Shown piece after piece: positions 30,660-41,288 of a stretch of 64,000 bases of DNA; the first letter of the stretch is position 1, and each line of letters begins with the position of its first letter. A program made the translations under genes and the position numbers. The stretch is from Cellulosimicrobium protaetiae. GTDB taxonomy: Bacteria > Actinomycetota > Actinomycetes > Actinomycetales > Cellulomonadaceae. Below the pieces are notes generated by a model that saw nothing but the letters and a program-made list of their open reading frames with translations, was not told the DNA's origin and ran no database searches. The stretch covers positions 4,092,001 through 4,156,000 of the forward strand of contig NZ_CP052757.1 of assembly GCF_009708005.2 (NCBI RefSeq), in the 5' to 3' direction.

Positions 30660-30758
30660 GGTCGGGGTGGGTGGTGGTGCCGCGTCTACCATCCGCCGCT
30701 CGTTCCTCGCGGCTCCCGCCAGGCCCGCCACGACGCGGCACCACCACCCACCCCGACC
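30660..30758 (+). repeat. conserved-loop hairpin, copy B
   Basis: Arms 30660-30686 and 30732-30758 are perfect 27-bp reverse complements (left arm ends GTGGGTGGTGGTGCCGCGTC). The 45-nt loop 30687-30731 starts TACCATCCGCCGCTCGTTCC and ends CCCGCCAC. It is identical to the loop of copy C, where the stem differs. Confidence 0.9.
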
Positions 30759-31137
30759 GGCGTCGTCTCGCCCTGGTCCGTCCTCACCGCGGGCGACTGC
30801 CCGCGGTGTCGGCCTGTCGCGCGGCTCACCTTCGCGGCCTTCCTGCTCCCCGTCGCAACATCGGCGCTCACGGCCGCACCTTGGTGCCTGGCCCAGCCGG
30901 CGAGCAGGTGATCCGGGCACGTCCCGTCCGCGCGATGCGCCCGGACTGCCTGCCCGATCCGCCCCGACGCGCTCGTCGACCGGTCGGGTCACCCGGTCAT
31001 CTCGTCGACCCGGGGCGCCTCGCCGCTCGGGGCCAGCCCCGCGCGACCCGACCACCTCCGGAGAGCCGGCCACCTCGGACGGTGACTGGCCGGAACGGTG
31101 ACCCGACCGCGACAGGCGACCGAACGACGTCAGGCAT

Positions 31138-31260
31138 GACCACGGTTCTCTCTCGGGCAGCCAAGGTTCTGTCTCGCGTACCGGGGTTCTACCTCGGCAA
31201 ACTGCGGTTCTACCTCGGCGGACCACGGTTCTACGTCGGCCGACCTCGGTTCTGCTTCGG
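31138..31260 (-). repeat. TAGAACC repeat array, six inverted units
   Basis: Units on the minus strand read CGAGGTAGAACCCCGGTAC, CGACGTAGAACCGTGGTCC and relatives; outer units are more diverged (GAGAGAGAACC, GAGACAGAACC). Confidence 0.8.
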
Positions 31261-31360
31261 CGGACGGCGACTCGAGGTCGACGAGCCCGGAGACCGGGGC
31301 CGCACCCCGCCGAGGGTGGCGAACGCAGGAGCGACCACGCGCTCAAGCCGGAGTTGGGCT

Positions 31361-31508
31361 GAGCGGTGGGGGTGGGCTCGGATGCGAAGGGGCGTCAAAG
31401 CCGCGCTCCTCAAACCCACGGCCGAAGAACCCGAGGCGACGGCGCGGCAGCCCCGAGCACCGAGTCCACCCCCACCGCGGGCCCGGCCCCGCGAGCCTGA
31501 GACCCGAC
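31361..31508 (-). repeat. ~148-bp shared block, minus orientation
   Basis: Counterpart of 12631-12779. The end stem is a perfect 13 bp here: GCGGTGGGGGTGG against CCACCCCCACCGC. Both copies keep TGACGCCCCTTCGCATCCGA. Confidence 0.75.
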
Positions 31509-31583
31509 CACGGTTCTACTTCGCGCGACCACGGTTCTATCTCGCGCGACCAGGGTTCTACCTCGGCGGGCCGGGGTTCTACC
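31509..31583 (-). repeat. TAGAACC repeat array, four units, starting at the aldo/keto reductase stop
   Basis: On the minus strand GAGGTAGAACCCCGG, GAGGTAGAACCCTGG, GAGATAGAACCGTGG and GAAGTAGAACCGTGG. The first one supplies the TAG stop (31579-31581) of the reductase gene. Confidence 0.85.
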
Positions 31584-32628
31584 TCGCGAGGACGGACTCG
31601 ATCGCGGCCGACTCGTCGGGGGTGAGCGGGGGTGCCGAGAGGGCGGCGACGTTGTTCTCGAGCTGGCGGACGCTGCTCGCGCCGACGAGCGCCGACGTGA
31701 CACGGTCGTCGCGCAGGACCCAGGTGAGGGCGAGCTGGGCGAGGGTCTGACCCCGTCCACCCGCGATCTCGTTCAGCGCCCGAGCCCTCTCGAGGTACGT
31801 GTCGTCGAGGTTCTGCTCGGACAGGAACGGGGAGTCGGGGCGTGCGGCGCGCGACCCCTCGGGCGCGGAGCCGGAGAGGTAGCGGTCGGTGAGCAGGCCT
31901 TGCTGGAGCGGCGAGAACACGATGGTGCCGACGCCGAGGTCGCCCACGACGTCGAGCAACGACTCGCTCTGGACGCCGTCGTACCGGTCCTCGTGCGCCG
32001 GGTCCTCGACGTGACGGTTCAGCATCGAGTAGCTGGGCTGGTGGATGAGCAGCGGGGTGCCGAGGTCGGCGAGGATCGCGGCGGCCTCGCGCGTGCGGGA
32101 CGGCGAGTAGTTCGAGACGCCGACGTAGAGCGCCTTGCCCTGCTGGACGGCGTCGTGCAGCGCCCGCATGGACTCCTCGAGCGGCGTGCTCGGGTCCGGG
32201 CGGTGGTGGTAGAAGACGTCGACGTAGTCGAGGCCCGTGCGCGTCAGCGACTGGTCGAGCGACGACAGGAGGTACTTGCGCGAGCCGCCGTCGCCGTACG
32301 GGCCGGGCCACATGTCGTACCCGGCCTTGGAGGAGATGACGAGCTCGTCGCGGTACGCGCCGAGGTCCTGGGCGAGGTGGCGGCCGAAGTTCTCCTCGGC
32401 GGTGCCGTACGGCGGGCCGTAGTTGTTGGCGAGGTCGAAGTGGGTGATCCCGAGGTCGAAGGCCCGGCGCAGGACGGCGCGCTGCGTCTCGAACGGGTTC
32501 ACGTCGCCGAAGTTGTGCCACAGGCCGAGCGAGATCGCGGGCAGGTCGAGGCCGCTGCGCCCCGTCCGGCGGTAGGTCATGGTGTCGTAACGGTCGTCGG
32601 CGGCGACGTAGCGCGGGGCGAGAGGCAT
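31579..32628 (-). CDS. aldo/keto reductase, YghZ/Kv-beta-like
   Basis: 349 residues, single AKR barrel. Catalytic Asp/Tyr region HFDLANNYGPPYGTAEENFG, Lys in VISSKAGYDMWPGPYG, His in VFYHHRPDPSTPLEE; cofactor region ALVGASSVRQLENN. Resembles L-glyceraldehyde 3-phosphate reductase (YghZ) with NADPH use expected. ATG at 32628. It lies downstream of a LacI gene on the same strand with 32 bp between, so it is probably regulated with it. Stop codon is a repeat-derived TAG. Confidence 0.88.
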   Translation of the reverse strand: MPLAPRYVAADDRYDTMTYRRTGRSGLDLPAISLGLWHNFGDVNPFETQRAVLRRAFDLGITHFDLANNYGPPYGTAEENFGRHLAQDLGAYRDELVISSKAGYDMWPGPYGDGGSRKYLLSSLDQSLTRTGLDYVDVFYHHRPDPSTPLEESMRALHDAVQQGKALYVGVSNYSPSRTREAAAILADLGTPLLIHQPSYSMLNRHVEDPAHEDRYDGVQSESLLDVVGDLGVGTIVFSPLQQGLLTDRYLSGSAPEGSRAARPDSPFLSEQNLDDTYLERARALNEIAGGRGQTLAQLALTWVLRDDRVTSALVGASSVRQLENNVAALSAPPLTPDESAAIESVLAR

Positions 32629-32660
32629 GTGCCCATTCTGCCTCCCCGCCGGCAGGGATT

Positions 32661-40608: not shown

Positions 40609-40630
40609 GCCGTTGCGTCGGGTGGTGGCT

Positions 40631-40702
40631 GGTCACCCCCGGCCCGACACCTCCACGGAGGCCCGTCGTCCGGTCACCTCCGGCCCGACACCTCCGCGGA
40701 GG
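40631..40702 (+). repeat. 31-bp direct repeat, two copies
   Basis: GGTCACC(C/T)CCGGCCCGACAC followed by CTCC(A/G)CGGAGG occurs at 40631-40661 and 40672-40702, two differences. The second runs into hairpin C. Confidence 0.75.
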
Positions 40703-40778
40703 GCGGGGCGGGTCTACCATCCGCCGCTCGTTCCTCGCGGCTCCCGCCAGGCCCGCCACGACCCGCCCCGCCCTCCGC
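40696..40778 (+). repeat. conserved-loop hairpin, copy C
   Basis: Arms GCGGAGGGCGGGGCGGGTC (40696-40714) and its exact complement at 40760-40778 enclose the same 45-nt loop as copy B (40715-40759). CGGCGTCG and CTCGCCTCGGGCG follow, as after copies A and B. Confidence 0.9.
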
Positions 40779-40959
40779 TCCGGCGTCGGACCTCGTCCTG
40801 GCCCTCGCCTCGGGCGTCGGTCCAGGACGTAGGTCGTCGGGCGTCGGGCAGCCACGGCACGGCCGTCGCCCGCGACCCGGCGCGGTATCCGGAGCGGTGG
40901 CCGGATCGACGGCGACGCACCCCGACCATCACTGCTGAACTTCGGCGACTGACGCCTGA

Positions 40960-41017
40960 CGAGATGCGAGTTGTTGCCCCTCCCCGGACCAAGATGGGGG
41001 CCACAACTCGCATCTCG
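40960..41017. terminator. 15-bp perfect hairpin, possible terminator
   Basis: Arms CGAGATGCGAGTTGT (40960-40974) and ACAACTCGCATCTCG (41003-41017) pair perfectly, then after one mismatch five more pairs (GCCCC/GGGGC). Similar in kind to the AT-richer hairpin at 8376, also between convergent genes. Confidence 0.65.
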
Positions 41018-41183
41018 CGTCTCGGCGTCGGGGCCGCCGGTCCGGCGGCGAGCCGCGCGCCGGCCTCGCGCAGCGCGAGAGGCGTCCGCCGACCACCCAG
41101 TCGAGTCGCCCGGCGCCCGGTACCACCACGACGACGTCCCGCAACGCGCGCGTCCGCGGTCACCCCGGTGAGACGGACGGGGA

Positions 41184-41288
41184 GGTCGGGTGGAGCGAGG
41201 GGCGGGGCGGGTCGTGGTGGGACTGGCGGGAGCCGCGAGGGACGAGCGGCGGATGGTAGACCCGCCCCGCCCCTCGCTTCACCCGACC
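41184..41288 (-). repeat. conserved-loop hairpin, copy D
   Basis: Arms 41184-41213 and 41259-41288 pair over 30 bp with one G-T. The 45-nt loop (41214-41258), read on the minus strand, begins TACCATCCGCCGCTCGTCCC and differs from B/C at only a few bases. Stem core GGGGCGGGGCGGGTC is shared with C but not with A/B. Confidence 0.9.

Follow-up and report, generated by a model that had tools for sequence, protein, structure and literature searches.

Four hairpins in a 64,000 nt stretch of the Cellulosimicrobium protaetiae chromosome (NZ_CP052757.1, positions 4,092,001 to 4,156,000 of the forward strand; here the window) are copies of a two-helix element. An outer stem, P1, is followed by an asymmetric internal loop and an inner stem-loop, P2. 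The consensus of the internal loop, nnCCATCC / TCCCGCCAGrCCCr(n)CCA, hardly varies, while both stems vary freely yet remain paired. The hairpins represent a real family of structured interspersed elements, present in several families of the class and, within our searches of Rfam and the open-access literature, apparently undescribed. We rate as about evenly balanced the chances that this interspersed element of Actinobacteria acts as RNA, with its internal loop recognised and mRNA protected or processed as a result. This function is inferred; structure, conservation and position relative to genes of our own calling are what the data show.

A hairpin of two helices around a conserved internal loop

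When a 37-base loop pattern was used to query the 4.78 Mb genome to which the window belongs (G000; G, L and f numbers are our handles for genomes, loci and families), 39 copies with up to 3 mismatches were returned, and the reversed control pattern returned none. A second covariance model added one copy (L008:1508), so the genome contains at least 40. The 39 mapped copies were divided into class A (31/39), a dispersed repeat with a common stem and conserved flanks, and class B (8/39), which have other stems. The window contains two of each.

13241–13334, minus strand: class A hairpin, a copy of the dispersed repeat, with a 24 bp stem
30660–30758, plus strand: class A hairpin; P1 30660–30686/30732–30758, P2 30695–30699/30709–30713
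30687–30694 and 30714–30731, plus strand: internal loop of the 30660 hairpin, with its apical loop at 30700–30708
40696–40778, plus strand: class B hairpin, its stem not that of class A; P1 40696–40714/40760–40778, P2 40723–40727/40737–40741
41184–41288, minus strand: class B hairpin with a 30 bp stem; one mismatch, G-T on the plus strand and A-C on the motif strand

The original prediction had described four hairpins with stems of 24, 27, 19 and 30 bp, one G-T pair and a shared loop. All four are present where it placed them, the stem lengths agree when read by eye, and the single G-T is in the 30 bp stem of the 41184 hairpin, on the plus strand. The 17-base start of the loop occurs exactly four times in the window, and a fifth match has 3 mismatches. 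The mean number expected by chance is 0.46, and five occurrences were found in 0/100 shuffles. While the loop is fixed as predicted, it is not featureless, as an inner hairpin, GCCGC-TCGTTCCTC-GCGGC, lies inside it and covaries. The stem shared by the 13241 and 30660 copies cannot serve as independent evidence. These are near-identical members of one dispersed repeat, so the likeness of their stems reflects duplication, and the structural evidence comes from the remaining copies and from other genera.

In a MAFFT alignment of 46 sequences, with 18 pairs modelled in P1 and five in P2, 96.5% of 1058 cells were paired and double changes were found at 16/23 pairs. Covariation was 0.499, compared with 0.101 for shuffled alignments and at most 0.12 when the arms were slid. 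These pairing figures are raised by the removal of L075, L126, L076 and L034, which together comprise two metagenome-assembled genome (MAG) scaffolds with broken arms (L075 and L126), one copy with mismatched arms and one loop insertion. The 46 rows are 46/47 references (L016 was left out and L200 was re-trimmed). The class A list contributed eight positions to the 47 references, six of them distinct, and five of the 46 rows are class A. In a larger set of 96 sequences from the genus and other families, collected from 89 sources that are part of the loci analysed, 95.6% of cells were paired, double changes were found at 23/23 pairs, and covariation was 0.780, compared with 0.152 for shuffled alignments and at most 0.136 for slid arms. 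Because this alignment was fitted to the model, it is biased towards the structure. In both sets the helices covary beyond the controls, as is expected of a conserved structured RNA motif.

P1, counted as the 18 modelled pairs and their uninterrupted extension, is 18–32 pairs long (median 22) and is shorter in L260 and L311:2828. When P2 was located via the loop anchors alone, 39 distinct segments were recovered, two of which were from viral contigs and lacked stems. The remaining 37 (12–36 nt) open with 3–7 uninterrupted pairs in 34 cases and with 1–2 in three, the first pair being fixed by the search pattern itself. The apical loop TCGTTCCTC is common yet replaceable, with TGGC or TGGT in its place in g23 and a longer stem in f17.

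In loop matches collected regardless of their stems, the own arms mostly pair. Own-arm pairing averaged 17.9/18 in class A (n = 109) and 17.0/18 in class B (n = 46, two of which reached only 9 and 12; L075 and L126 were left out of the 48 available), compared with 11.6/18 when arms were swapped between class B copies. Fold energies in this test had a mean z of -4.9 (range -8.6 to +0.7). The predicted compensatory change in the arms is upheld, in that pairs are kept via double changes around a fixed loop in several families and, outside the order, in a few genomes.

Copies, arrays and distribution

In G000, 36/39 mapped copies are outside called genes, making the element one with multiple extragenic palindromic copies. 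Class A copies are associated with a 21 bp unit (consensus near CGAGGTAGAACCGTGGTCGGC). Copies of the unit precede the hairpin within the gene gap in 31/31 cases, and inverted units follow it in 29/31. Only 2/8 class B gaps contain any unit. Over the gaps of all 39 copies, 115 units upstream of the hairpin are in the same orientation and none is inverted, while downstream 128 are inverted and one is in the same orientation. Genome-wide there are approximately 490 units, compared with 10 for the control. Tandem pairs of units were found in 14/17 genomes of the genus, and one match each in two genomes of other genera. The arrays around the class A hairpins of the window are as follows.

12593–13006, plus strand: 21 bp unit arrays (12593–12635 and 12857–13006) on one side of the 13241 hairpin
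13370–13471, minus strand: inverted array at the opposite flank of the 13241 hairpin, to which a conserved spacer links it
30543–30624, plus strand: array directly before the 30660 hairpin
31133–31588, minus strand: inverted arrays (31133–31265 and 31505–31588) after the 30660 hairpin

A further array, at 20429–20496 in the window, is not accompanied by a class A hairpin. By the criteria for miniature inverted-repeat transposable elements (MITEs), class A has flanking inverted arrays, and neither sharp ends nor a target duplication was identified. In Cellulosimicrobium, one version of the element nested between inverted 21 bp arrays may have multiplied into a dispersed repeat whose copies are no longer tied to the orientation of genes.

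Comparison of orthologous sites revealed how the arrays and hairpins differ between relatives. At the 30.5–31.6 kb site, a single 21 bp unit faces one or two inverted ones in G003 and G011, and there are one or two units per side in G004, G007 and G008. Long arrays are found in G014 without a hairpin, in G006 with a decayed hairpin and in G012 with a hairpin in the other orientation. No 21 bp arrays were seen at this site in G002, G005, G010, G015 and G016; the comparison excludes G001, G009 and G013, whose matches were weak. Given this range, from single facing units to long arrays, the arrays look as if the arms of a small hairpin had grown, with the class A element enclosed between them.

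At 40.6–41.4 kb, both class B hairpins of the window are also in G007 and G008, where the stem of the first hairpin departs from that in the window at a single pair, C-G to T-A. G001 has one hairpin in this gap. When stems were compared by eye, its inner stem was one pair longer, and in its outer stem a C-G pair was changed to T-A and one deletion had been compensated. No hairpin was seen in the gap in G004, G005, G014 and G016, and the other genomes gave only weak matches or had no orthologous flank. The predicted cassette that inserts into palindromes was not demonstrated. Class A copies do lie between inverted arrays and sites vary between species, but neither of the two loci compared showed a stem whose loop was empty. 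Copies can be kept, as by eye 6/9 matches in G038 correspond to a copy in G057. In g23, one site is common to five genomes (L202–L206).

Cellulosimicrobium belongs to the Actinomycetota, and the loop was found in 17/17 genomes of the genus examined, in G001 as a single copy at 3 mismatches. Among named records, 115/118 stretches with the loop are from Cellulosimicrobium. In the other three (L078, L093 and L113), recorded under the name Sphaerisporangium cinnabarinum ATCC 31213, the element is of the Cellulosimicrobium version, and the name may be wrong. The first model detected the element in 24/297 sampled genomes of the order, representing 13/95 genera, and the second in 13/394 sampled genomes of the class (C. 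protaetiae itself is counted in both). As at most 15 candidates per genome were scored for the order and at most 11 for the class, under strict filters, the copy numbers and genome counts from these models are lower bounds. Within g21, for example, G084 has at least 13 model matches and the closely related G036, G056, G071 and G095 have none. Nine of the 13 genomes are outside the order. Four of them, from family f38, have a variant with the same apical loop but another internal loop, and in those from f27, f45 and f57 the internal loop is mostly or fully kept. The f38 variant, with its TCGTTCCTC-type apical loop and different internal loop (L346, L348, L351, L352, L355 and L359), is perhaps a sister family. 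Tandem copies were also seen, three in a row in G212 (L252), of which the third is incomplete, and in G609 (L347/L354) a pair 139 bp apart.

A known RNA family was rejected. The window has no match in Rfam 15 at the gathering score, and eleven loci searched at E ≤5 gave only three weak matches, none at the cut-off. Two of these are microRNA models that match the L239 hairpin with 28 and 25.6 bits, compared with cut-offs of 70 and 72. No description of the element was found in the titles and abstracts of the matches listed from the open-access literature.

In the C. cellulans MP1 draft, at least 10 contigs start or stop within approximately 60 bases of the loop (L066, L071, L079, L090, L092, L110, L111, L115, L120 and L128), from which the element seems to break assemblies. 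The broken arms of MAG scaffolds L075 and L126 perhaps also result from assembly breakage.

Position, strand and possible function

Genes were identified with our own codon-score caller and not taken from the annotation. Outside Cellulosimicrobium, 77 model matches were found in 71 loci. The upstream gene is on the same strand in 55, on the opposite strand in 9 and not visible in 2, while 11 matches are inside called ORFs, some of which are probably false. Where the upstream gene is on the same strand, the element lies 13–262 nt (median 44 nt) after its stop codon. Tandem gaps outside the genus contain 27 sense and 7 antisense elements (p = 8e-4), and with shared and double sites collapsed by hand the counts are 21 and 7 (p = 0.013). 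The element separates nrdE and nrdF, for the large and small subunits of ribonucleotide reductase, in three genera (L249, L261 and L201), infB and rbfA in L318, and kdpA and an E1-E2 ATPase gene in L251. In L254, infB is upstream of the element and the downstream protein has no Pfam match. The element is also found between tsaE and a gene for a TsaD-family protein, and between genes for solute-binding proteins and transport components in L315 and L316. A common function of the neighbouring genes was rejected, as the flanking genes scanned are diverse and many are housekeeping genes.

Predicted RNA folding also favours the sense strand. P2 has a mean probability above 0.5 in 59/96 sense sequences but 15/96 antisense sequences, and the internal loop is unpaired at 0.71 in sense compared with 0.49 in antisense. 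On our preferred reading, that the element acts as RNA, the transcript would fold into P1 and P2, and the C-rich internal loop would be held open and bound by a putative factor. The very stable P1 would block 3'-to-5' decay or mark a processing site, and the upstream message would thereby outlast the downstream one. A nearly constant loop, combined with long stems that vary freely without losing their pairing, suggests recognition of the loop by something in the cell, and the length of message life might be tuned in this way. More tentatively, and with the odds against so specific a version, nnCCATCC / TCCCGCCAGrCCCr(n)CCA may be the address of a putative factor in actinobacteria, one acting on mRNA downstream of stop codons and setting product ratios in operons such as nrdE/nrdF, infB/rbfA and kdpA/kdpB, with the same folded element copied around the genome without a known REP (repetitive extragenic palindromic) transposase.

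Were this so, an unnamed family of structured elements would be added to the Actinobacteria, with a route to a new RNA- or DNA-binding factor and a way to examine what determines operon stoichiometry in high-GC bacteria. The family would also be a natural experiment, as stems have been replaced repeatedly with the internal loop left nearly untouched, so that specificity seems to reside in the loop. It could further serve to tell selection from template switching as the means by which stems stay perfect.

Several observations weigh against a role as RNA. In the Cellulosimicrobium loci analysed, the sense bias is absent, with 20 sense and 21 antisense copies in class A tandem gaps and 5 and 9, respectively, in class B. 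Occurrence across the order and class is patchy and sites differ between sister species, and so the element is not essential. Mismatches in the helices are also of the wrong kind. On the sense strand, A.C outnumbers G.T by 49 cells to 20 in the 96-row set (42 to 20 in a collapsed count, p = 0.007) and by 12 to 0 in its Cellulosimicrobium rows alone (hand count), and a first count in the 46-row set gave approximately 20 A.C and 3 G.U. A structured RNA on the proposed strand should tolerate G.U over A.C, so the observed ratio is opposite to that predicted under selection on sense RNA, and it opposes an RNA-only explanation. Whole class A stems show the contrary, 45 G.T and 11 A.C, though these copies are near-identical and nearly all outside the 96-row set. 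The comparison that gave this count took in 158 loop segments less one, L024, whose anchor did not match. The strand indicated by wobble pairs contradicts that indicated by position and folding. Either the other strand matters, or template switching corrects the arms at the level of DNA, and such correction may help to keep the pairing.

If pairing were kept by mutation and not by selection, through hairpin-primed template switching, only the loop sequence, or nothing, would be under selection. This mechanism can keep inverted arms perfect, as described in PMC8794818, and compensatory change alone is therefore no proof of selection on RNA. Of 2161 cells, both sides were changed in 655 and one side only, with a standard pair, in 13, while 96 were unpaired. 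G.U is rare (20 cells), and compensated indels separate orthologues of the 41184 hairpin (by eye). We nonetheless regard template switching as a doubtful explanation on its own, as it does not account for the conservation of the internal loop between families, a P2 that varies in length but stays paired, or the sense bias. It could operate together with selection. The original prediction took compensatory change in the arms as strong evidence for selected structure. Taken alone, and with A.C mismatches commoner than G.U in the stems, that is too strong, though both the sense bias and the conservation of the internal loop agree with it.

The element could instead be non-autonomous mobile DNA, similar to a REP or MITE, with a recombinase that recognises the internal loop of the folded single strand and 3' ends that are safe landing places. 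We see this as a possibility, well short of an even chance. It fits the copy number in G000 and the conserved flanks of the 31 class A repeats, the presence or absence of copies at orthologous sites, lineage-specific P1 subfamilies such as the GTCGCGAGGC stems in many G084 copies, the random orientation of class A and the wobble asymmetry, which is not RNA-like. However, neither fixed ends nor a target duplication was seen, and the sense bias outside the genus also counts against it. Mobilisation as a REP by a RAYT (REP-associated tyrosine transposase) was rejected because the Y1 transposase domain (Y1_Tnp, PF01797) was found in 0/18 genomes, compared with 5/14 control genomes, in a search that did not extend to other recombinases. 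Carriage by plasmids or phages was likewise rejected, as a blastn search of plasmids and phages with one 81 nt copy returned no match, and the only two matches in a viral pattern scan lack both stems and were taken as chance.

Transcription termination, perhaps in both directions where genes converge, would suit very stable stems positioned shortly after stop codons, and a bidirectional terminator had been among the predicted roles. Class A gaps in the genome are convergent in 13 cases and divergent in one, whereas the window's gene pairs include 8 of each kind (p = 0.017), but when divergent gaps are compared with all others the difference is not significant (p = 0.14), and there are 6 divergent class A gaps over all loci analysed. 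The longest T-run within 25 nt after 95 stems is 0–3, and a Rho-independent terminator was rejected for want of a T-tract. Copies are also found inside operons, in the nrdEF, infB-rbfA and kdpA-ATPase gaps, and termination leaves the conserved internal loop unexplained. We consider this role quite unlikely.

Related systems and surrounding features

Integron attC sites have sequence-free paired stems after genes that are recognised by shape, with conserved basal boxes. The element shares the free paired stems and the position after genes, but every modelled P1 pair varies and it is the internal loop that is conserved. Like intrinsic terminators, it is a GC-rich hairpin following a stop codon, but it has no T-tract, is also found inside operons and has the conserved internal loop. 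The REP between malE and malF is a case of a protective structure. Protective RNA structures in Escherichia coli operons lead to differential decay and are generally within coding regions, according to PMC5927463. The element is likewise a structure in an operon message that is able to make one part stabler, but it belongs to one dispersed family, is in gaps and has a conserved internal loop.

REPs are the nearest kind. According to PMC3733652, REPs and bacterial interspersed mosaic elements (BIMEs) with GTAG or CGTC tags have stems of 5–13 bp that define families and loops of 2–20 bp, mRNA stabilisation is among their proposed roles, and GTAG-type REPs go with a Y1 transposase. The element resembles REPs and BIMEs in its many extragenic palindromic copies per genome, but its stem is long and free, its internal loop is fixed, and no Y1 transposase was found in the 18 genomes tested. 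The GTAG that marks the foot of GTAG REPs is absent, as the foot here is P1, in which 18/18 modelled pairs vary. Its complement, CTAC, is inside the loop of many copies and not at the foot. With 18–32 pairs, P1 also differs from the CGTC REPs, which have stems of 8–9 bp and loops of 4–5 bp.

The following genes flank the hairpins of the window.

11310–12587, plus strand: ROK-family gene, converging on the 13241 hairpin
13507–14643, minus strand: LacI-family regulator gene, flanking the 13241 hairpin
29156–30490, plus strand: sigma-factor-like gene (Sigma70_r2/r4, DUF6596), flanking the 30660 hairpin
31579–32628, minus strand: aldo/keto reductase gene, flanking the 30660 hairpin
37972–40608, plus strand: gene with F5/8 type C domains, flanking the class B hairpins
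41390–42427, minus strand: 3-oxoacyl-ACP synthase III gene, flanking the class B hairpins

A different hairpin is found between the two class B hairpins, at 40960–41017. It has a base of CGAGATGC...GCATCTCG and a variable inner stem, and related hairpins are present at the same locus in G004, G016 and G001. It is possibly a second case of a fixed part combined with a changing stem. A 24 bp tandem repeat of 3.4 copies, at 41280–41360, adjoins the 41184 hairpin.

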